A stretch of 64,000 nucleotides of DNA, from the NCBI GenBank assembly GCA_029243605.1, contig JAQWRT010000045.1:1-64000 (forward strand). The letters run 5' to 3'. The DNA is from Myxococcota bacterium (GTDB lineage Bacteria > Myxococcota_A > UBA9160 > UBA4427). Below, one piece after another: positions 11,130 through 24,576 of the stretch. A program made the position numbers and the translations under genes. The first letter of the stretch is position 1. Each line of letters opens with the position of its first letter. The notes beneath the pieces were generated by a model. The model saw nothing but the letters and a program-made list of their open reading frames with translations, ran no database searches and was not told the DNA's origin.

Positions 11130-12494
11130 ATGCGAAAGAGCGCGACTTATTCTTCAGGCGAAAAATCGGCCAGAAAATACCGAGCGCTTTACGCAGAACA
11201 AGAAAGCGCTCTCAGCGAAAAACTTCGCGGTCTCTCAATATCCTTCGGCCATGGGCTGACTATCCCCTGCTTTAATGAGGGAGAGGGAATTGCCTCCGGC
11301 CTTCACTCCCTTCGCCCGGGGCCTCGAGGCCAGGCGCTGATCGTTCTCGTGGTCAACGCTCCCGGGGGCGCCTCGGACGAATCTCGGGCTAGCAATGCTC
11401 AAACGCTCCGGTGCATTCGATCCGACTATGGCGAGGGGGAAAATCTCGGAGCCTTCGCACACATCTATTCTCATCCCGCTGGGAAGTTGCTCGTCATTGA
11501 TCGAAGCTCCGAGACCCCGCTGCCCCATGGCCAGGGAGTGGGCTTGGCACGAAAGATCGGGGCGGACCTGCTGCATGCTTTAGTCGACGAAGGCCTGATC
11601 GAATCTCCCTGGATTCATTGCAGCGATGCCGACGCCATCTTCCCCGAAGATTATTTTGATCAACCTGAATTGCAATCCGAGGGGAGCGAAGCGGCCCTGC
11701 TCTACCGATTTCGTCATGTGGAGGGCGACCATCGCGAAGCGTATCGGGTGGCTCTCCACTATGAACTTTCGCTTCGTTACTACGTCCTCGGCCTTCGCTT
11801 CGCGCGCTCGCCCTACGCGTTTCATTCCATCGGCAGCACTCTCGCGGTTCATGCCAACGCATACGCGCGCGTGCGGGGCTTCCCCCGTCGCGAAGCCGCC
11901 GAAGATTTTTACCTCCTCAACAAACTCGCGAAGGTTGGGAGCATTCGTCCCCTCAAAGGCCAAGCCCTCGAACTCTCTTCCCGAACCTCCTCGCGCGTTC
12001 CCTTTGGAACCGGGGCCGCGATTCGGCGCCTTCTCGACCCGGCAAGTCTCGATCTCCAGACCTACACGCCAGCGGTTTTTTACGCCCTGAGAGCTTGGCA
12101 GGTCGCTCTCGAAACCGCGTGCGAAGCCGGCAGCTCGAGCCCGCCGCTGGCCGAGCTCGTCGGGCAGCACGCCCAGGCCGACCCCAGGGTGGATTCCGAC
12201 CTGCTGGTCCGAATTCTGGGCGACCGGGGAGACCTCCAGGCGGCGGAGCACATGCTCATGACCGGGGGCAATGGGCTGCGCCCCCGACTTCTGGGGCACT
12301 TCGACGGATTCAGAAGCCTCAAGCTGATCCACGCCCTGCGCGATGCCGGCCTCGTGAATATTCCCCTAGAAGCCGCCCTCGAGGAGGCCTCTTTCCTGGC
12401 GCCCCAGGCGGGCACCCCCCCGACTCCCCTCGAAACCCTTTCCGAGCACCTCGAAGCCCAGGAATTCCCGATTCCATCCCTGGGATTTGCCTAG
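11130..12494 (+). CDS. Glycosyltransferase-2-like (GT-A fold) protein
   Basis: About 454 residues, cytoplasmic. The GT-A elements are an N-terminal TIPCFNEGEG, then IVLVVNAPGGASDESR (typical of the UDP-sugar-binding half), the acidic CSDADAIFPEDYF (DxD-like metal site) and a mid-protein acceptor loop ending EAAEDFYLLNKLAKVG with the family's ED pair. The last ~170 residues are helical and not recognised. ATG 11130 is preferred; GTG 11118 would add four residues. The 3' end overlaps the convergent alkyl sulfatase by four bases. Acceptor unknown. Confidence 0.7.
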   Translation: MRKSATYSSGEKSARKYRALYAEQESALSEKLRGLSISFGHGLTIPCFNEGEGIASGLHSLRPGPRGQALIVLVVNAPGGASDESRASNAQTLRCIRSDYGEGENLGAFAHIYSHPAGKLLVIDRSSETPLPHGQGVGLARKIGADLLHALVDEGLIESPWIHCSDADAIFPEDYFDQPELQSEGSEAALLYRFRHVEGDHREAYRVALHYELSLRYYVLGLRFARSPYAFHSIGSTLAVHANAYARVRGFPRREAAEDFYLLNKLAKVGSIRPLKGQALELSSRTSSRVPFGTGAAIRRLLDPASLDLQTYTPAVFYALRAWQVALETACEAGSSSPPLAELVGQHAQADPRVDSDLLVRILGDRGDLQAAEHMLMTGGNGLRPRLLGHFDGFRSLKLIHALRDAGLVNIPLEAALEEASFLAPQAGTPPTPLETLSEHLEAQEFPIPSLGFA

Positions 12495-13921
12495 GCGCCG
12501 CCGGGCTCCAAGCGAGCACGAACCTCTTCGAGTCGGGACCCAAGCCACCCGAGCTCGAAGGCATTCTGATGCCCCGCCCGGGCCCGGGCGAGCAGCTCGT
12601 CGAGAGCGTCCCGGTGCAATTCGAGAGCCGAGCGAAATTCTGGATCCGACTCGAGCACGATTTCCGAGAAATGGAGGCTCTCCACGGGGTTCCCCTGGGC
12701 AAGCGATGCGCGCCCCCGCGCCACCAAATTCTCCGGGCCCGCGAGTTCAGCCAACTCACCATAAATCGAACGTATAGGCACCGGGTAGAGCTCGGTCGTC
12801 GAGTCATGGTGAAACCATGTCGCGTAGTATTCCCAGATACTCTTGACCCCCCAAGAGACCTTTCCGTGGACCTGGCTGAGCTCAAGCTCCGGCGGCAATT
12901 GGATTTCTTCCATCAGCTCATAGACAGTCCGCCCCGAATTCATTCCCTCCACCGTCGCATCGTGAACGAACTGCACGGCATCGCGCATTCTCGTCATTGC
13001 CGCTTTGATTTCTTCTCTCCCATAAGCCGGGGAGAGATGCGACGGAATCAAGACTTCGGGCTCAAGCGCGATAAGTCGATCCAGGGAACGGATATACTCG
13101 ATGGGCTTCCTTGTCTTCTCGCCACGCATGGTGAAGATATTTGGAAACTGAGGAAAGATGGGGCCAAAGAAATCACCCGAGAGCAGGATCTTCTGATCGG
13201 GAAGCCAGAGACAAAGGTTGTCGGCACCTTCCGCGCCCGGCGTCGGAATAACCTCGAACCGGATACCGCCCCGCTCGAAGGTCAGGCTCTCTTCCCCGTC
13301 CACTCTGAGCGTCGGCTCTATCTTTCCAAACTCCAGAGGCCCCCCCGAAACGGGCTCTTCGGGCATCCAGGGAAAGAGTCGCCTATTTCGAGTCCAAAGG
13401 TAGGGCTCCAGTTCTTTCAAATAGCGTTGTTCTTCTTCGAACTCGGCATGAGCAATGATCTCACTGTCGTCTTCGAGCCAGAACGCGACCCCTCCGACGT
13501 GGTCCTGATGGGAGTGACTGAGGATGATCTCGGTAATCGGGCCGCTACCGGCGGATTCCTCGAGAAGCCTCTTCTGCTTGGCTGCCTGGATCGAGAGGCC
13601 TGTATCGAAGACGACATAGCCCTCTGATGTCGGGATCAACTGGGTATTCGCTATCCCGGTCGCCTGGAAAACGATATCCGCGATCTGAATCACCTCGACG
13701 GGTCGAGTGTCGGCCATGTAGCCCTCTGCCACGTTCCCGGCAATCTCGGCGACGCCCAGGGTGGTCGCCTTGCGAGCAGAGGGAGAGAACAACCACAGCG
13801 CCAGCACGAGACTCAGCCCCGCTCCGATTACGACCAAGAGCAGACTCGAGATCCGAATAGCGCCCAGCCGGCGGCGACGATTAACCGAAGAGCTTGCGGG
13901 GTGTTCGAAATGCTCGCGCAT
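12491..13921 (-). CDS. Membrane-anchored MBL-fold alkyl-sulfatase-like hydrolase
   Basis: 476 residues from ATG 13921, which has AAGGA upstream; a GTG at 13951 is the alternative. An N-terminal anchor (~residues 22-45) is followed by a metallo-beta-lactamase domain with the zinc motif LSHSHQDHVGG, a later acidic ligand in LLSGDFFGP and a histidine in IPSHLSPAYG. The C-terminal ~150 residues resemble the helical dimerisation domain of SdsA-type alkyl sulfatases. It would hydrolyse sulfate esters (or a related ester) in the periplasm. It is clearly diverged from the second sulfatase at 20407-22404: Asp replaces the usual Glu pair. The true substrate is therefore uncertain. Confidence 0.75.
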   Translation of the reverse strand: MREHFEHPASSSVNRRRRLGAIRISSLLLVVIGAGLSLVLALWLFSPSARKATTLGVAEIAGNVAEGYMADTRPVEVIQIADIVFQATGIANTQLIPTSEGYVVFDTGLSIQAAKQKRLLEESAGSGPITEIILSHSHQDHVGGVAFWLEDDSEIIAHAEFEEEQRYLKELEPYLWTRNRRLFPWMPEEPVSGGPLEFGKIEPTLRVDGEESLTFERGGIRFEVIPTPGAEGADNLCLWLPDQKILLSGDFFGPIFPQFPNIFTMRGEKTRKPIEYIRSLDRLIALEPEVLIPSHLSPAYGREEIKAAMTRMRDAVQFVHDATVEGMNSGRTVYELMEEIQLPPELELSQVHGKVSWGVKSIWEYYATWFHHDSTTELYPVPIRSIYGELAELAGPENLVARGRASLAQGNPVESLHFSEIVLESDPEFRSALELHRDALDELLARARAGHQNAFELGWLGSRLEEVRARLEPGGA

Positions 13922-14033
13922 GAGACGGGTTCCTTCTCCGTTTGAGTTCACTCGGTGGCCAAGGTCGTATCTGCGGCTGTTTGCCCCTGCCTCACAAGGA
14001 TGAGCGATAAGCTCTCATACAATAGGGGAAGGC

Positions 14034-17165: not shown

Positions 17166-17311
17166 ACGCCTTGATCCCCCTCCTGGAACAGTTCGCCGGG
17201 GCTGGCGAGATCCTTGTCGCGATGCTCTGCCTCGTCATCATCCATCGGGCGAATCGCTCGGTGCCCGATTCTGCAGCGCCCAGGGCGGCGTCTCGCTCGC
17301 CCTTCGCCTAG
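17162..17311 (+). CDS. 49-residue single-pass membrane peptide
   Basis: Starts at ATG 17162 with AGGAGG at about 17150-17155, one of the best ribosome sites in the window, and overlaps the preceding gene by ATGA. The peptide begins MNALIPLLEQFAGAGEILVA and continues with one hydrophobic helix (~residues 10-30, MLCLVIIH at its end), then a short basic tail. No family recognised. Its coupling to the CxxC protein suggests the two act together. It stops seven bases before the end of the convergent selenoprotein gene. Confidence 0.5.
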   Translation: MNALIPLLEQFAGAGEILVAMLCLVIIHRANRSVPDSAAPRAASRSPFA

Positions 17312-17318
17312 GCCGAAA

Positions 17319-18071
17319 TCAAGGCGTATTCATCGCTCGGATCGCGGCGAAGATCGTTTCGGGCTCGGCGCGTTGGCGATAGGTTTCCGATTCGTAGACC
17401 CAGCGTGCGGATCCCCTTCGGTCTACAAGGATCGCGGTGGGGAAGGCGATATCCCTACCCTCCTTCGCTCCCCGATGCCGGATATTCAAGGCGTCCAGGA
17501 GCAGGCCTCCTGGATCCGACAGGAAAGTGAAGCGCGCACCCAGGCGGTCACGCAGGCGTCGAGAAGTTGCCGGGGAATCAACACTCACGGCGTAGAGCTC
17601 GACCCCTTCGCTCTTAATCGCGTCGTAGTAGCTTTCGAGCTGGACCAGCTCGGTTCGGCAAAAAGGTCACCAATCGCCGCGGTAGAAGATGTAGAGCTCC
17701 GGCTCCCGAGGCTCGTTCGAATCTCTCGAATGGACGACCTCATCCTGGTCGAGGAGGGCATAGCTCGGAAAGGCGTCCCCTACCTCCAGCGCCACTGCGT
17801 GGTCGGGCAGAAAACTACCCTGGAGGAAGTAGGAGGAAAAAAAGGCCACCAGCAGCACCTGCAGGCCAAAGCTGGTGGCGGAAAGAAGAGTTCGGCGCTT
17901 TGCCAGAGCCGCTAAGCCCAGACCGGCGCCCAACCAGACGAACCCAAGCGCCCGCCAGGGGACGCGCGCGTGAATGAATTCGTCGTGGCCAATCGGCGGG
18001 CCGCTGCCCATGGCGCCCAGGATAAACCACCCGTAGCAGGCCAGAATCAACAGCCAGGAAACCCAAAGCAT
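17319..18071 (-). CDS. Membrane-anchored peroxiredoxin-like selenoprotein (UGA = Sec135)
   Basis: Read through the in-frame TGA at 17667-17669, this is one 250-residue protein. Residues 1-22, ~41-58 and ~62-84 are membrane helices. From ~90 it is an AhpC/TSA redoxin domain: EVGDAFPSYAL, then YIFYRGDW-U-PFCRTELVQL, where relatives have RGDWCPFC, then AVSVDSPATSRRLRDR, FLSDPGG and AFPTAILVDRRG. Sec135 with Cys138 forms a UxxC redox pair in place of the resolving CxxC. Both halves are needed for the thioredoxin fold, and homology crosses the UGA with no shift. A SECIS-like hairpin follows the codon. A conventional annotation would split this into two truncated genes. It lies 40 nt downstream of a (broken) GST gene on the same strand. 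Likely role: thiol-dependent peroxide or disulfide reduction at the membrane. Confidence 0.88.
17636..17652 (-). promoter_or_regulatory. Bacterial SECIS-like hairpin for Sec insertion
   Basis: On the minus strand, 14 nt after the UGA codon, CGAGCUG-GUC-CAGCUCG forms a perfect 7-bp stem. Opening the top pair exposes a GGUC apical loop starting 21 nt after the UGA. The E. coli fdhF SECIS also presents GGUC in its apical loop at nearly the same distance. This is the expected place and shape for SelB binding. The selA, selB, selC and selD genes are not in the window and must be elsewhere. Confidence 0.75.
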
Positions 18072-18111
18072 AAAGTGAATCGGTCCTTTTCTCGTCTCTT
18101 GAGGCCCGGGA

Positions 18112-18794
18112 CTAGGCGTTTAGATCGACACTCTCCTTGACGATCTTTCGGCAGATCGCCAGGTTGGGACCAAAGCTCGGACGGGCGCTCAGCCGCTCGG
18201 TATGAGCCACAAGGTTCGGCCAACGTGCCGGGTCGGAGAGACCGGCCACGAGCTGGAGGTTGGTCATCTGGCAAGCCAGCGAAATATCGGCGATGGAGAT
18301 CGCACCCCCCACCAAAAATTCCTCGCCCGCCAGTTCGCCTTCGATGTAGTCGAAGAGCGGAGGCAAACCCTCGTTCCACGTTTTTTCGCCGCCGGAATAT
18401 CGCTTTCCTTCCCCTGGAAGCGGGGGAAGAGGATCGGTCGAAAGATCCCCATACCGACCTTTCCTGCGAGTTCGGTATCCGCCCACTCTTCGTACCACGT
18501 GGCTCGGCCGAGCTCGAATGCATCTGCGGGGTAGAGGGCTGGCTCGGAAAATTTCCGTTCGGCGAAAGCGCAGATCGCCGACGAGTCGGCGATGGTTCCC
18601 TTCGGGCCCTCGCGCCCCACCGAGAGATCGCGCAACACGGGGATTCGCTTGGCGGGACTGATTTCCTTGAACCAGTCGGGCATGGGCATAATATTCACCG
18701 GTTCGCTCTCAAACTCGGCCCCCTTCTCTCGCAAGAGAACTTCGACCTTGCGAACAAAGGGAGAAAGCGGCGCTCCGTAGAGAATCAAACTCAT
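18112..18794 (-). pseudogene. Glutathione S-transferase family gene with one frameshift
   Basis: The first frame (from ATG 18794) gives a thioredoxin-like GST N-domain: LYGAPLSPFVRKVEVLLREK, PAKRIPVL (cis-Pro) and ADSSAICAF. It then loses homology. The second frame continues with the helical C-domain, from TWNEGLPPLFDYIEGEL through ISIADISLACQ (the N-capping box) to the TAG at 18112-18114. The two join at a run of six T on the plus strand (18381-18386). One more base there gives AAKKTWNEGL and a normal ~227-residue GST. This may be a real mutation, an assembly indel or, less likely, slippage. It is probably co-transcribed with the selenoprotein. Confidence 0.8.
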
Positions 18795-19918: not shown

Positions 19919-20353
19919 ATGTCCCTGGCCATGAGCCGTAGCGAGCGCGAGGCCTTTCTTGCCGACATCCACGTAGGCGTGATCAGCATCGAAGAGCCCG
20001 GAGGGCCGCCGCTCACGGTGCCGATCTGGTACGACTACGCACCCGAAACCGGGCTCTGGATACTCACCGAAGAGGATTCTCTCAAGGGCCGTGCCCTGGC
20101 CGCAGCCGGACGTTTCACTCTCTGTGCCCAGGTCGAAGAGCCGCCCCACTATCAATACGTTTCCGTCTCCGGCCCCATCGTTTCCGTGCGAGACGTCGAC
20201 CGGGAACAGGACTCGCGCCCCATGGCCCACCGCTATTTCGGACCCGAGTTGGGCGATCTCTACACGGATTCCGAGAAACCCGGAAAAGTGAAGGTTTTCA
20301 CCATGCAGCCCGAACGCTGGCGCACCGTAAACTACGGAAAGCTCGGAGCTTGA
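19919..20353 (+). CDS. Pyridoxamine-phosphate-oxidase-like FMN/F420 split-barrel protein
   Basis: 144 residues from ATG 19919, chosen because AGGAG (19906-19910) sits 8 nt upstream. The fold is the small split beta-barrel: DIHVGVISIEEPGGPPLTVP, then IWYDYAPETGLWILTEEDSLK and RFTLCAQVEEPPHYQYVSV, with the strand pattern of flavin or deazaflavin (F420) binding proteins. Such proteins act as small-molecule reductases or oxidases. The length fits the stand-alone family. It precedes the alkyl sulfatase by 53 nt on the same strand. Confidence 0.8.
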   Translation: MSLAMSRSEREAFLADIHVGVISIEEPGGPPLTVPIWYDYAPETGLWILTEEDSLKGRALAAAGRFTLCAQVEEPPHYQYVSVSGPIVSVRDVDREQDSRPMAHRYFGPELGDLYTDSEKPGKVKVFTMQPERWRTVNYGKLGA

Positions 20354-20406
20354 GCCTCTCTCTGACTCCAGCCGCACCAAAACTAAAAATCAATAGGGGA
20401 TCTGAT

Positions 20407-22404
20407 TTGTCTCGATACCGTTTTGCTCTCGCCATTTTCTTGTTTCCCCTATGGCTCGCCTGTAGCGCAGAGTCTCCCGCCCCTACCCCAACGCCAGCCG
20501 GGAGCCTGAATCCCGAGATCAAGCCGGCAAGCGAGTTCACGGTGGCAGCCAACACGGCGGTCCTCAAGAAGCTTCCCTTCGGCGACGACTCGGATTTTGA
20601 GCGAGCCAGCCGGGGCTTCATCGCGGGACCCGATAACCTCGTGATTCAGGCCGAGGATGGCAGCGAGGCCTGGAATATGGTGGCCTACGATTTCATCGAG
20701 GGCGACGCCCCAGAGACCGTCAACCCGAGCCTCTGGCGTCAGGCCAAGCTCAACAATATCCATGGACTCTTCGAAGTCGTCGATGGCATCTATCAGGTGC
20801 GGGGCTACGACCTCTCCAACATCACCTTTATTCGCGGCGAGACGGGCTGGATCGTGGTGGATCCGCTGATCACCGTCGAAGCAGCCTCCGCTGCCCTGGC
20901 CCTGGCCAACGCCGAATTGGGAGAGCGACCGGTGGTGGCGGTGATCTACACCCATAGCCACGCCGATCATTTCGGCGGTGTCCGAGGAGTGACAACTCCC
21001 GAGGACGTCGCTGCGGGCCGGGTACGAATCCTGGCGCCCGAAGGATTCAGCCACCACGCGGTGAGCGAGAACGTGCTGGCGGGCAACGTCATGACCCGCC
21101 GGGCGGAGTACATGTTTGGTGGGCTCCTCGACGAGGGACCTCAGGGCCGGGTCGACGCGGGCTTGGGCAAGACCACATCGCGCGGACGCGTCTCCATGAT
21201 TGCCCCCACCGATATCATCGGCGAGACGCCCACCCCGATTACCGTCGACGGTGTCGAGATGATCTTCATGTACACCCCCAACGCCGAGGCCCCGGCGGAG
21301 ATGATGTTCTATCTCCCCCAATGGAAAGCTTTCTGCCCCGCCGAAGAAGCGAATGCGGTCTTTCATAATCTCTATACCCTGCGCGGAGCCCAGGTCCGAA
21401 GCGGCAAGGATTGGGCCGCCTGGCTCGAGCAGGCCATCCAGCTCTTCGGCGACGATCTCGAACTCGTCTTCGGCAGTCACCATTGGCCGCGCTGGGGGCG
21501 CGAAGAGGCCATCGAATATCTCGCCAATCAGCGAGATCTCTACGGCTACGTCCACGACCAAACCCTGCGCTTGGCCAACCAGGGCCTGACGCCCCAGGAG
21601 ATCGCCGAAATCATCGAACTCCCCGACAGCCTCGGGCAGCAATGGTATAACCGCGATTATTACGGCACCGTGCGCCACAATTCCAAAGCTACCTACCAGT
21701 ACTACCTCGGCTGGTTCGACGGGAACCCGGCGAACCTGAGCCCGTTGCCCCCGACCGAGAGCGGTGCCCGCTACGTAGAGTGGATGGGCGGCGCCGACGC
21801 CATGGTCGAAAAGGGCAAAGCGGCCCTGGCCCGAGGCGAATACCGCTGGGTCGCCGAGGCCATGAACCACCTAGTCTTCGCCGAGCCCAACAATGAGCGC
21901 GCGCGCTGGCTCCAGGCCGACGCCCTGGAACAATTGGGTTACCAGGCGGAGTCGGGTCCGTGGCGCAATTTCTACCTGAGCGGAGCTCGGGAACTCAGGG
22001 AGGGTGTCATCGTGAGCGGTCGGGTGAACACCGCCAACTCCGACGTCATCGCCGGCATGGATTCCGCCATGGTCTTCGATTTCATGGCGGTACGGCTCAA
22101 GGGTCTCGAAGCCGCGGAAGAAGAACTCGCGCTGCAGATCCGTTTCAGCGATCGGCAAGAGATCTGGGTGGTGGACGTGGAGAACGGCGTCCTCCATGCA
22201 CGGGAGGGCACTCCCCACCCAGACCCGGATATCGCTCTCGAGATGACTCGCGCGGATTTCCTGGGATTGCTCGCGGGCGAAGTCGGAGTGCCCACTCTGC
22301 TGGCGGGCGACCGGATTGATATTTCGGGCAACCCACTGGCCCTCGCCACCTTCGGTGGGCTCTTCGACCGCTTCGAAACCGATTTTGAGATTGTGCGCCC
22401 CTGA
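20407..22404 (+). CDS. SdsA-type alkyl sulfatase lipoprotein
   Basis: 665 residues from TTG 20407, with GGGGA 6 nt upstream. A lipobox LWLAC near residue 17 predicts membrane-bound export. The MBL domain has THSHADHFGG, the family's second metal cluster in CPAEEANAVFHNLYTLRG (Glu pair) and GSHHWPRWGREE. These match P. aeruginosa SdsA1-type enzymes, which hydrolyse primary alkyl sulfates to alcohol and sulfate. The helical dimerisation domain (~430-540) and the C-terminal SCP2-like lid (~550-665) are both present, so the protein is complete. It would let the cell use sulfated lipids or surfactants as carbon or sulfur sources. Confidence 0.9.
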   Translation: MSRYRFALAIFLFPLWLACSAESPAPTPTPAGSLNPEIKPASEFTVAANTAVLKKLPFGDDSDFERASRGFIAGPDNLVIQAEDGSEAWNMVAYDFIEGDAPETVNPSLWRQAKLNNIHGLFEVVDGIYQVRGYDLSNITFIRGETGWIVVDPLITVEAASAALALANAELGERPVVAVIYTHSHADHFGGVRGVTTPEDVAAGRVRILAPEGFSHHAVSENVLAGNVMTRRAEYMFGGLLDEGPQGRVDAGLGKTTSRGRVSMIAPTDIIGETPTPITVDGVEMIFMYTPNAEAPAEMMFYLPQWKAFCPAEEANAVFHNLYTLRGAQVRSGKDWAAWLEQAIQLFGDDLELVFGSHHWPRWGREEAIEYLANQRDLYGYVHDQTLRLANQGLTPQEIAEIIELPDSLGQQWYNRDYYGTVRHNSKATYQYYLGWFDGNPANLSPLPPTESGARYVEWMGGADAMVEKGKAALARGEYRWVAEAMNHLVFAEPNNERARWLQADALEQLGYQAESGPWRNFYLSGARELREGVIVSGRVNTANSDVIAGMDSAMVFDFMAVRLKGLEAAEEELALQIRFSDRQEIWVVDVENGVLHAREGTPHPDPDIALEMTRADFLGLLAGEVGVPTLLAGDRIDISGNPLALATFGGLFDRFETDFEIVRP

Positions 22405-22516: not shown

Positions 22517-23701
22517 TCAGGGGGCCGGCGCAAAGGGGTCCTGGAAATCGGGGTCGGTCAGAAAGCCCGGGTCGCTGAGCATCAAGAGGAAGGCCTTGAG
22601 CCCCTGAACCACCGTGGGCGTAAGCGGCCCCTGGAGCGCCCGGGCGCGCAAATTCGAATCGAGATTGGGGCTCTCGGTAGCCACCCCTGCACTGTAGTGC
22701 TCGAGAACCTCATCGAGGGTCCCGAAGCGCCCATCGTGCATATAGGGCCCGGTGAACTCGATATTGCGTAGGGTCGGCACCCGGAATTTACCTTCGTGGA
22801 GAGGTTCCCCGGTGACTTCCATCAAACCCGGGGGCGGCAACGCGTCGAGACCGTTATTGCCGAAGGTATTTCCCGGACTGGCGAAGAGCGCGAGGTTCCC
22901 CCCGTGGCAATGAAAGCAGTCACCGACCTCGCTGGTGAAAGCCAGGTAGCCGATGGCCTCGTCGGGTGTGGGTTCGATTTCGCCCCGCACCCATTGATCC
23001 CATCTCGAGTTATAGGAGCGTAAGGTGCGCTCGAATTGGGCGATGGCCATGACCATACGATCTTGGCTGACGCCCGGATCGCCGAAGGCGGCCTCGAACA
23101 TTCCGGGATAAACGGAGTCGGCCCGGACCTTGGCCTCGGCCTGATCCCAGGGCAGATTCATTTCCTGCTCGTTTGCAACCGGCTCTCGGGCCTGGGTTTC
23201 AAGGCTGTCCGCTCGGCCATCCCAGAAGAGCGAAAAATGCTCGCCCGATTGAAAGGGAAATTCGAGCCTGAAGGGATCCGCACTCGTCCAGCCCAAGTTG
23301 ATGAGGGCCGGCGCATTGAAATCGCCCAGAGCCCCGCCCACCCCTTCGCTGAAGGGCTCGGCTTGGGTGGCGTCGATATCGCTGAACGCGGCGGCGGGGT
23401 CGTGGCAACTCGAACACGAGACCGAGTCATCGCTCGAGAGAATCGGGTCGAAGAAGAGCCGGCGTCCCAGGGCCACGCCTTCCTCGGTCGTGAGATTATC
23501 CACGGGGATGGGCATCGTGCGAAAATCGGTTTGCGCGTCGGCCAATTCGGCGGGCTTATTCGTACTGGGAGGAATATTCAGATCGACGGGCGTGGTCTCG
23601 GGCGTCAGGGTCGAAGATCCGCTCTCGCCGCTGTCGCACCCACCCAACACCCAGGGGGCCAGCATGGCGACGAGCAGAATTACGGGAAGAAATGCTTTCA
23701 C
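22517..23701 (-). CDS. Di-haem MauG/cytochrome-c-peroxidase family enzyme (MbnH-like)
   Basis: 394 residues from GTG 23701, eight bases after the MbnP-like stop. A lipobox LGGC near residue 22 indicates export as a lipoprotein. Two c-type haem sites are CSSCH (~96-100) and CFHCH (~262-266), and GPYMHDGRFG near residue 320 is the conserved third segment of di-haem peroxidases. Paired with an MbnP-family gene, it fits MbnH, which oxidises a tryptophan of MbnP to kynurenine with peroxide. A plain cytochrome c peroxidase is the alternative if the partner is ignored. Confidence 0.85.
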   Translation of the reverse strand: MKAFLPVILLVAMLAPWVLGGCDSGESGSSTLTPETTPVDLNIPPSTNKPAELADAQTDFRTMPIPVDNLTTEEGVALGRRLFFDPILSSDDSVSCSSCHDPAAAFSDIDATQAEPFSEGVGGALGDFNAPALINLGWTSADPFRLEFPFQSGEHFSLFWDGRADSLETQAREPVANEQEMNLPWDQAEAKVRADSVYPGMFEAAFGDPGVSQDRMVMAIAQFERTLRSYNSRWDQWVRGEIEPTPDEAIGYLAFTSEVGDCFHCHGGNLALFASPGNTFGNNGLDALPPPGLMEVTGEPLHEGKFRVPTLRNIEFTGPYMHDGRFGTLDEVLEHYSAGVATESPNLDSNLRARALQGPLTPTVVQGLKAFLLMLSDPGFLTDPDFQDPFAPAP

Positions 23702-23709
23702 CGGTCTGC

Positions 23710-24576
23710 CTAACCTTCGCTGGCAGTCACACTGAACACGTCTCCGGCGTTGAGGCGCATCATCGACTGGGGTTCGGGGCCGGGCATGGTGGGAAAACCC
23801 AGGGTGCACGGAGGATTCGCAAAGAGCGGAGGGCAAAGGCTCGGATCCGCCCAGTCCTGACCAAAATCATAAAGGGGGTCGTTCATCCATTCCTGGATGT
23901 CGACCACGATGACAAGGGTCCAGTGCCGACCGGAACCCGTCGTGACCGTGGTGACCGGCAGGCTGATTTCGGCCATCCCCGTCTCGTCAATGGGATAGGC
24001 GGGAGCGAGACAATCCTCGTAAGTCTCCATCAGATTGGAGCAGCGCCGGAGATTGCCCGCGTGAAGCACGTAGGAGGAGTCCCCGGGTGTTGCGTTCGAC
24101 CAGCTGCCCTCGAAACGCATGGCGTGGTAGCCGCCCCCGAATGGCGAAGGCCAGTGCATTCCATCGTATTGGGGCGGCAGTACTCCCGTTATATTGCGGG
24201 CATCTGGAACGCCCCAAAAGAAGCTCAGGGTGTCGAACTCTTCCGGGGTCTGAAACTCGAACGAGTGCTCTGAATTCCCCTGGTCGACAGCGTTCCCGTA
24301 GAGAGTCTGGGCCAGGTCGAGTTCCGCTCCCGAAACACCATTCGACAACCGGAGATCACTGATCAGATACTCGAACTTCGTCACGCTATACGGATTGGCC
24401 GCTGCGTTCGTGTAGATCAGTTGGTCAATCTCAAGTGGAGTGCCAGCGACCTGATGCACGATCCGAACTGTGATTCCGTCCGAACTTCCACCACTTTGAT
24501 CTGAACTGCAGGCCAGAGCGAGCGGGACCAAGAGCAGAAAACTGAAAAGAAAGCTGGAGCGTCGACTGTTTCTCAT
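23710..24576 (-). CDS. MbnP-family copper-site lipoprotein
   Basis: 288 residues from ATG 24576 with a lipobox LALAC near residue 19. The mature protein is a beta-rich MbnP-type domain: YLISDLRLSNG, then SFFWGVPDARN and DGMHWPSPFGGGYHAMRFEG, the segment where the family has its conserved GMYW...GY...EG. In characterised pairs a tryptophan of MbnP is converted to kynurenine by MbnH and helps bind copper. Here Trp of DGMHW is the analogous position. It leads a two-gene operon (8-nt gap) with the di-haem enzyme. No methanobactin genes are nearby, so the role is probably general copper handling. Confidence 0.82.
   Translation of the reverse strand: MRNSRRSSFLFSFLLLVPLALACSSDQSGGSSDGITVRIVHQVAGTPLEIDQLIYTNAAANPYSVTKFEYLISDLRLSNGVSGAELDLAQTLYGNAVDQGNSEHSFEFQTPEEFDTLSFFWGVPDARNITGVLPPQYDGMHWPSPFGGGYHAMRFEGSWSNATPGDSSYVLHAGNLRRCSNLMETYEDCLAPAYPIDETGMAEISLPVTTVTTGSGRHWTLVIVVDIQEWMNDPLYDFGQDWADPSLCPPLFANPPCTLGFPTMPGPEPQSMMRLNAGDVFSVTASEG

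Follow-up and report, generated by a model that had tools for sequence, protein, structure and literature searches.

Prx-like selenoproteins, which carry a UxxC motif, were already among the known families in 2005 (PMC1088965, main text), and 225 sequences of 'Prx-like 1', with the PF00578 domain and UxxC, were counted in 2008 (PMC2398784, main text). The Prx-like family is also entered in tables of PMC9312934, as predicted selenoproteins, and of PMC13188914. Selenocysteine (Sec)-containing peroxiredoxins, by contrast, are described in the main text of PMC1088965 as using TxxU, not UxxC. The gene described here was found in a 64-kb stretch of DNA from a Myxococcota bacterium (hereafter the window, meaning the whole stretch analysed). 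It resembles the Prx-like PF00578 selenoproteins with UxxC or UxxU, predicted thiol:disulfide oxidoreductases reported from the Sargasso Sea and GOS collections (PMC1088965; PMC2398784; PMC9312934; PMC13188914), as presented in main texts and tables, in its PF00578 domain, in having Sec as the first residue of UxxC, in a bacterial SECIS-like hairpin past the UGA, and in the existence of Cys homologues. A Prx-like selenoprotein is defined by PF00578 above its gathering score and by the UxxC motif; the window gene has both, therefore it belongs to a kind of selenoprotein that is already known. The window protein differs in its three conserved N-terminal membrane helices, as no anchor is mentioned for the Prx-like proteins in the passages of these papers that describe them, and neither PMC1088965 nor PMC2398784 uses the word 'membrane' anywhere in its main text. 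Likewise, the main text of PMC12013277 contains no Prx-like, redoxin or membrane. A 'Redoxin family protein' selenoprotein (PF08534, UxxC; PMC13188914, Table 1) shares with the window protein the Redoxin domain and UxxC, and may or may not be of the anchored type. Literature searches over open-licence PMC papers, taken without supplements, turned up none that describes an anchor of three helices on such a protein.

Several families outside the Prx-like group have features in common with the window protein. All 12 members of the alignment of the gene and its relatives match the SelL-related model (NCBIfam NF040769) at E<=0.001, but the window protein, at 31.0 bits, falls short of the cut-off of 120 for membership. 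The SelL motif is UxxU, where the window protein has UxxC. TlpA and ResA proteins are alike in their thioredoxin fold, W-C/U-P-x-C motif and membrane anchor, with Sec in the window protein in place of Cys, and the ResA model (NF002854) matches over residues 70-222 at 40.3 bits, below its cut-off of 170. ResA and TlpA have a single anchor helix. Bcp/PrxQ and AhpE are the best Foldseek matches, but their catalytic Pro, Thr/Ser and Arg are not kept in the window protein. No NCBIfam model reaches its cut-off on the joined window protein, and the 12 alignment members match the same distant NCBIfam models.

The gene lies on the minus strand at 17319-18071. Its start codon is ATG (18071-18069), at a position that aligns with the starts of relatives (in 12 sequences, GTG in L023 and L034 and ATG in the rest), and its terminal stop is TGA (17319-17321). 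From 18071 to 17322, with TGA taken as Sec, the frame encodes 250 amino acids with a single internal TGA (17667-17669; residue 135, in the motif FYRGDW-U-PFCRTEL) and no other internal stop. A preliminary description of this DNA had proposed that an in-frame TGA at these positions splits one gene; the coordinates were correct, and one 250-residue frame runs across the TGA. No strand had been given, and a plus-strand reading of 17319-18071 encodes no redoxin. When the joined protein was compared with the AhpC/TSA and redoxin families, as had been suggested, both Pfam domains were found (AhpC-TSA, PF00578, 1.3e-19; Redoxin, 6.6e-15). The gene is likely to be missed or truncated in annotation, since a plain ORF list breaks it into two separate ORFs, the active site lies at and behind the UGA, and no NCBIfam cut-off is reached. 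A scan of the 64-kb window for TGA within a redox-like motif, with the frame open on both sides, returned 47 rows, among which only this gene was recognised, by eye, as a redox protein.

The internal TGA is very probably read as selenocysteine, and the gene very probably encodes a membrane-anchored redoxin selenoprotein of the predicted architecture. The search of the class, in which 90 genomes were queried with the 12-member alignment, returned 75 matches, spread over 55 genomes, at E<=1e-22; these are the sequences near a Sec query, and more distant Cys homologues fall below this threshold. One in-frame TGA is present in 73 of the 75. The rows for G056 and G082, among the 73, also list TAG, which in the loci extracted from these two genomes lies at the C-terminal end. 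The two matches without TGA are a sequence whose contig ends before the site (G039:C70) and a Cys homologue with TGT at the site (G054:C91). The possibility that homologues all end at the UGA is thus answered in the negative, because 73 of the 75 class matches at this threshold continue past one TGA. In clade A, composed of the full-length members at E<=1e-100 (the window gene and 12 relatives), every one of the 13 has the TGA. Its exact position was checked in a wider set of extracted loci and is within W-U-P-[FY]-C in 37 of 37 (window and duplicates included). These are counts over related sequences and not independent events. UxxC (U135-P-F-C138) is invariant in all 12 aligned members.

Beyond the class, a draw of 377 genomes from the phylum, in which at most seven candidates per genome were scored and weaker copies were missed, gave matches in 72 genomes, 55 in the class and 17 outside it. 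Of the 17 matches from outside the class, 12 have TGA and five have no stop. The preliminary description had stated that relatives have CxxC in this place, and such relatives do exist; six matches without a stop extend across the site, namely these five and G054:C91, and all of them (L072, L095, L096, L097, L098, and L099) have TGT or TGC there. Two of these Cys homologues, L072 and L099, are also multi-helix membrane proteins. In the sequences compared, the alternation of TGA with TGC or TGT amounts to the exchange of Sec and Cys that a selenoprotein should show, and the UGA is conserved at a Cys/Sec pair that has Cys homologues, as a selenoprotein gene requires.

The TGA might instead have arisen by nonsense mutation of what was once a CxxC redoxin, or be a sequencing miscall in such a gene. 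Decay does occur close by; a glutathione S-transferase (GST) gene directly upstream of the selenoprotein gene (18112-18794, minus strand) is frameshifted in the window, with domain searches placing GST_N at 18264-18794 and GST_C at 18112-18498 in two frames, and in L021, whose selenoprotein is 90% identical, the GST has an 8-nt gap and about 300 nt are missing. This looks like a GST gene that is decaying while the adjoining selenoprotein gene stays intact. The same TGA is found in 13 of 13 full-length class members, the window included, therefore a miscall is no explanation for it. Comparisons of the window gene with 11 relatives gave dN/dS of 0.105-0.331 after the UGA in the 10 of 11 pairs that allowed a value and, before it, 0.217-0.502 in nine pairs, the others being saturated and many dS values exceeding 1; these ratios indicate that purifying selection continues past the UGA. 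The window gene contains no other internal stop, and the hairpin after the site is stronger in 43 Sec genes than in six Cys genes. A pseudogene or sequencing error is thus extremely improbable.

The two halves could also be separate products, a 134-residue membrane protein and a downstream peptide made from an internal start without insertion of Sec, and the downstream ORF (17319-17588, 89 residues) does have a GTG start. However, this GTG is residue 162, 27 codons past the UGA, and the peptide would lose the active site. In the AlphaFold model the UGA falls between a strand and a helix inside one thioredoxin fold, conservation is unbroken through W-U-P-F-C-R-x-E-L, and in the six Cys homologues a single frame continues across the site. 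Two products are therefore very improbable, and a single Sec-containing protein is the preferred reading.

A candidate bacterial SECIS hairpin for this selenoprotein (CGAGCUG-GUC-CAGCUCG; 7 bp, with a 3-nt loop that begins with G) was located at 17636-17652 on the minus strand from folding, codon freezing at residues 141-145, and published criteria. Its stem starts 14 nt and its loop 21 nt after the UGA, and its energy is -9.1 kcal/mol, or -10.6 when the flanks are folded with the stem-loop. According to the legend of Fig 2 in PMC13188914, bSECIS elements have a loop of 3-9 nt with G within its first two positions, a stem of 4-16 bp, a distance of 16-37 nt between UGA and loop, and MFE <= -7.5. 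The window hairpin lies within these published limits for loop, stem, spacing and energy. A single codon each is used in the 12 clade A genes for E141 (GAG), L142 (CTG), Q144 (CAG), and L145 (CTC), the two leucine codons differing because the pairing of the hairpin demands it. Among these 12 sequences, four of the five codons at 141-145 are invariant, whereas outside 136-146 the same is true of four of the 47 columns with an invariant residue, and in 20000 draws of five columns at random none was as frozen. The best stem-loop score after the site has a mean of 7.0 for the 43 Sec genes, as against 3.2 for the six Cys genes. This scoring and the tree were restricted to proteins that have the motif W[UC]P[FYLI]C, and eleven duplicate loci were dropped, L027 among them; L094 and L100 (WUSHC), L077 (WUPKU), and the distant matches without TGA, L073 (WCPPT), L074 (no Cys at the site), and L075 (WCPPC), stand outside these counts.

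The case for the SECIS hairpin rests on this codon freezing and on the contrast between Sec and Cys genes, since energy tests against shuffled sequences are weak. Of 500 synonymous shuffles of the window gene, 168 had a minimum energy as good, which is not significant, and most of the 12 genes were likewise not significant (best 4/500, worst 237/500). Dinucleotide shuffles gave a z of only -1.58 for the window hairpin, and an equally good stem was found at 8 of 200 control positions in the window gene. The clade B hairpin differs (UCGCCG-AGUUR-CGGCGA), with U-A for one C-G pair in L039, and in the clade C relatives L040, L070, and L084 the best stem by a simple stem rule is no better than at many control positions. 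An Rfam search over 17250-18200 gave no SECIS match, and only one sub-threshold match, to a snoRNA.

The machinery for Sec insertion is encoded in the window genome (G000; 4.44 Mb, 97 contigs, 92.94% complete), which has one match each above the cut-off to selA (477.7 bits; cut-off 267.9), selB (270.7; 242.25), selD (272.7; 125), and tRNA-Sec (67.1; 47). ARAGORN also reports a tRNA-SeC with anticodon tca. The sel genes that were to be looked for in the same genome are thus present, with selA, selB, and selD accompanied by tRNA-Sec(UCA), and SelA, SelB, SelD, and tRNA-Sec are the set that a genome with a selenoprotein gene needs. Among 14 control genomes, the cut-off was exceeded by the tRNA-Sec model in five, selB in two, selD in two, and selA in one. 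In the class, selA was found in 84 of 90 genomes, that is, in 54 of the 55 with a redoxin match and in 30 of the 35 with no match. Because selA is also in these 30, its co-occurrence with the redoxin is weak evidence. The exception is G077, an 85% complete assembly that has the redoxin gene and no selA match. The selD match in the window genome (L010, G000:C37:39314-40228) lies within a 781-residue open frame, more than twice the family length, and L010 is possibly a fusion of the Ndh-SelD type such as is described in the main text of PMC2398784. In the proposed decoding, SelB and Sec-tRNA(UCA) would read the internal UGA, prompted by the SECIS hairpin that starts 14 nt downstream, and a single 250-residue protein would be made.

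Divergent from the selenoprotein gene is yqeC, for selenium cofactor biosynthesis (TIGR03172; 18883-19737, plus strand; 161.6 bits against 73.05), which suggests that this genome has the selenium-cofactor trait as well. YqeC is either adjoining or has a GST remnant in between in three loci from the same genus, L021, L022, and L023. When nine window neighbours were looked for at 16 loci, L021-L023 alone had any of them (YqeC, GST and others), and none was found in the other 13 loci, in which the flanks are short (about 1-3 kb). The context therefore gives no function. Further neighbours at 12491-13951 (minus), 20350-22404 (plus), and 22517-23836 (minus) encode two metallo-beta-lactamase-fold proteins with an alkyl sulfatase dimerisation domain and a MauG/MbnH-like di-haem enzyme.

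The redoxin domain (AhpC-TSA, thioredoxin fold) covers residues 97-223 (17403-17783, minus strand), by Pfam, Foldseek and alignment to 2cx3, and includes UxxC at 135-138. PF00578 thus spans the UGA, with 70.8 bits against a gathering score of 26. The AlphaFold model, built from a 7-sequence alignment, has a mean pLDDT of 81.4 (below 50 at residues 22-32) and consists of three helices followed by a thioredoxin fold, with the UGA between strand 125-129 and helix 136-147. The top Foldseek matches are peroxiredoxins of the Bcp, AhpE, and PrxQ types (best 3hjp, E 1.2e-12; 4x1u, E 1.4e-11), and ResA is also found (1su9, E 3.0e-10). The description of the domain as peroxiredoxin-like can be kept for its fold, but not for its catalytic residues, three of the four peroxiredoxin positions being changed. 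In the alignment to 2cx3, Sec135 takes the position of the peroxiredoxin Thr/Ser, Arg131 that of the catalytic Pro, Pro211 that of the catalytic Arg, and Cys138 that of the peroxidatic Cys; canonical peroxiredoxins have PxxxT/SxxC and a catalytic Arg. The Cys position, C138, is all that is kept of this canonical pattern. Pro211 presumably corresponds to the cis-proline of thioredoxin and TlpA.

In clade A, residues 135 and 138 are the only positions conserved as Cys/Sec, with no conserved helix-borne cysteine, therefore the U135/C138 pair is likely to be the redox centre. Since the catalytic Pro, Thr/Ser and Arg of peroxiredoxins are replaced, the protein is probably a UxxC thiol-disulfide oxidoreductase rather than a peroxidase. 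The selenoprotein could still be a true peroxidase, membrane-bound and peroxiredoxin-like, that detoxifies hydroperoxides via Cys138 or Sec135; this would be in keeping with its best fold matches to Bcp, AhpE, and PrxQ, with Cys138 at the peroxidatic position, and with PF00578 as the AhpC/TSA family. However, the substituted residues Arg131, Sec135 and Pro211 stand where 2cx3 has Pro, Thr/Ser and Arg, and Arg131, position 135 and Pro211 are all invariant in the 12-member alignment. A peroxidase is accordingly considered rather unlikely. For the oxidoreductase, Sec135 would act as the attacking selenolate of the W-U-P-F-C motif and might open a disulfide, or reduce an oxidised thiol or a peroxide, on a substrate, both substrate and direction of reaction being conjectural. 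Cys138 would then resolve the selenenylsulfide, and the Sec135/Cys138 pair would be re-reduced by a donor, putatively of the thioredoxin or DsbD/CcdA type.

The three N-terminal membrane helices, proposed in the preliminary description, are found by a hydropathy scan and in the AlphaFold model, which has them at residues 2-21 (18009-18068), 37-58 (17898-17963), and 62-86 (17814-17888), all on the minus strand; the redoxin domain follows the third. Three helices are predicted in 13 non-redundant members of clade A, and in these loop 2, between helices 2 and 3, contains 3-4 Lys/Arg and loop 1 contains 0-2. In L078 the start picked is internal, hence only two helices were counted. By the positive-inside rule, on which this orientation depends, a Lys/Arg-rich loop 2 implies that loop 2 is cytoplasmic and the redoxin domain extracytoplasmic, and it is quite probable that the domain is on the periplasmic side. 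The opposite orientation, with the redoxin domain facing the cytoplasm, would suit some clade B relatives (among them L042, L043, and L044), whose positive charges lie in loop 1 while loop 2 has none, and the charge pattern of the clade B loops is ambiguous; in clade A, however, the charges of the two loops place the C-terminal domain outside, and a cytoplasmic domain is unlikely. With the domain outside, the three helices would hold the protein in the inner membrane and the AhpC/TSA-type domain would most likely be periplasmic.

The window genome has at least one clade B paralogue of the window gene. This second anchored Sec redoxin (L076, G000:C81:6951-7574) has a UGA in FFRAHWUPYC and 34-35% identity. 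Another relative, L077 (G055:C88:20600-20941), has two TGA codons in its motif, WUPKU, and in this resembles UxxU selenoproteins. L027, on a contig labelled Chloroflexi, is very close to clade A L025 up to about residue 200 and unrelated beyond it; the contig is therefore probably chimeric. In a tree of 49 sequences, Sec and Cys proteins are intermixed, with four changes between them. The Cys branches are long and some support is weak, therefore no direction of Sec/Cys change was drawn from the tree.

The combination of three membrane helices with a Sec redoxin domain had been called an uncommon arrangement. This does not hold for anchored Sec redoxins as such, of which several clades are common in this order; what does stand is that the three-helix anchor is less familiar. 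This anchor is widespread in the order. It is possible, and proposed here tentatively, that this class of Myxococcota has undescribed three-helix, membrane-anchored UxxC selenoredoxins, in at least three clades and often with several in one genome, and that they would make up a selenium-based envelope redox system, with selenols doing what the thiols of TlpA/ResA/DsbE-type proteins do. Anchored Sec redoxins are common in this little-studied class, with a match in 55 of 90 genomes and selA in 84 of 90, and their commonness makes a selenium-based envelope redox system testable.
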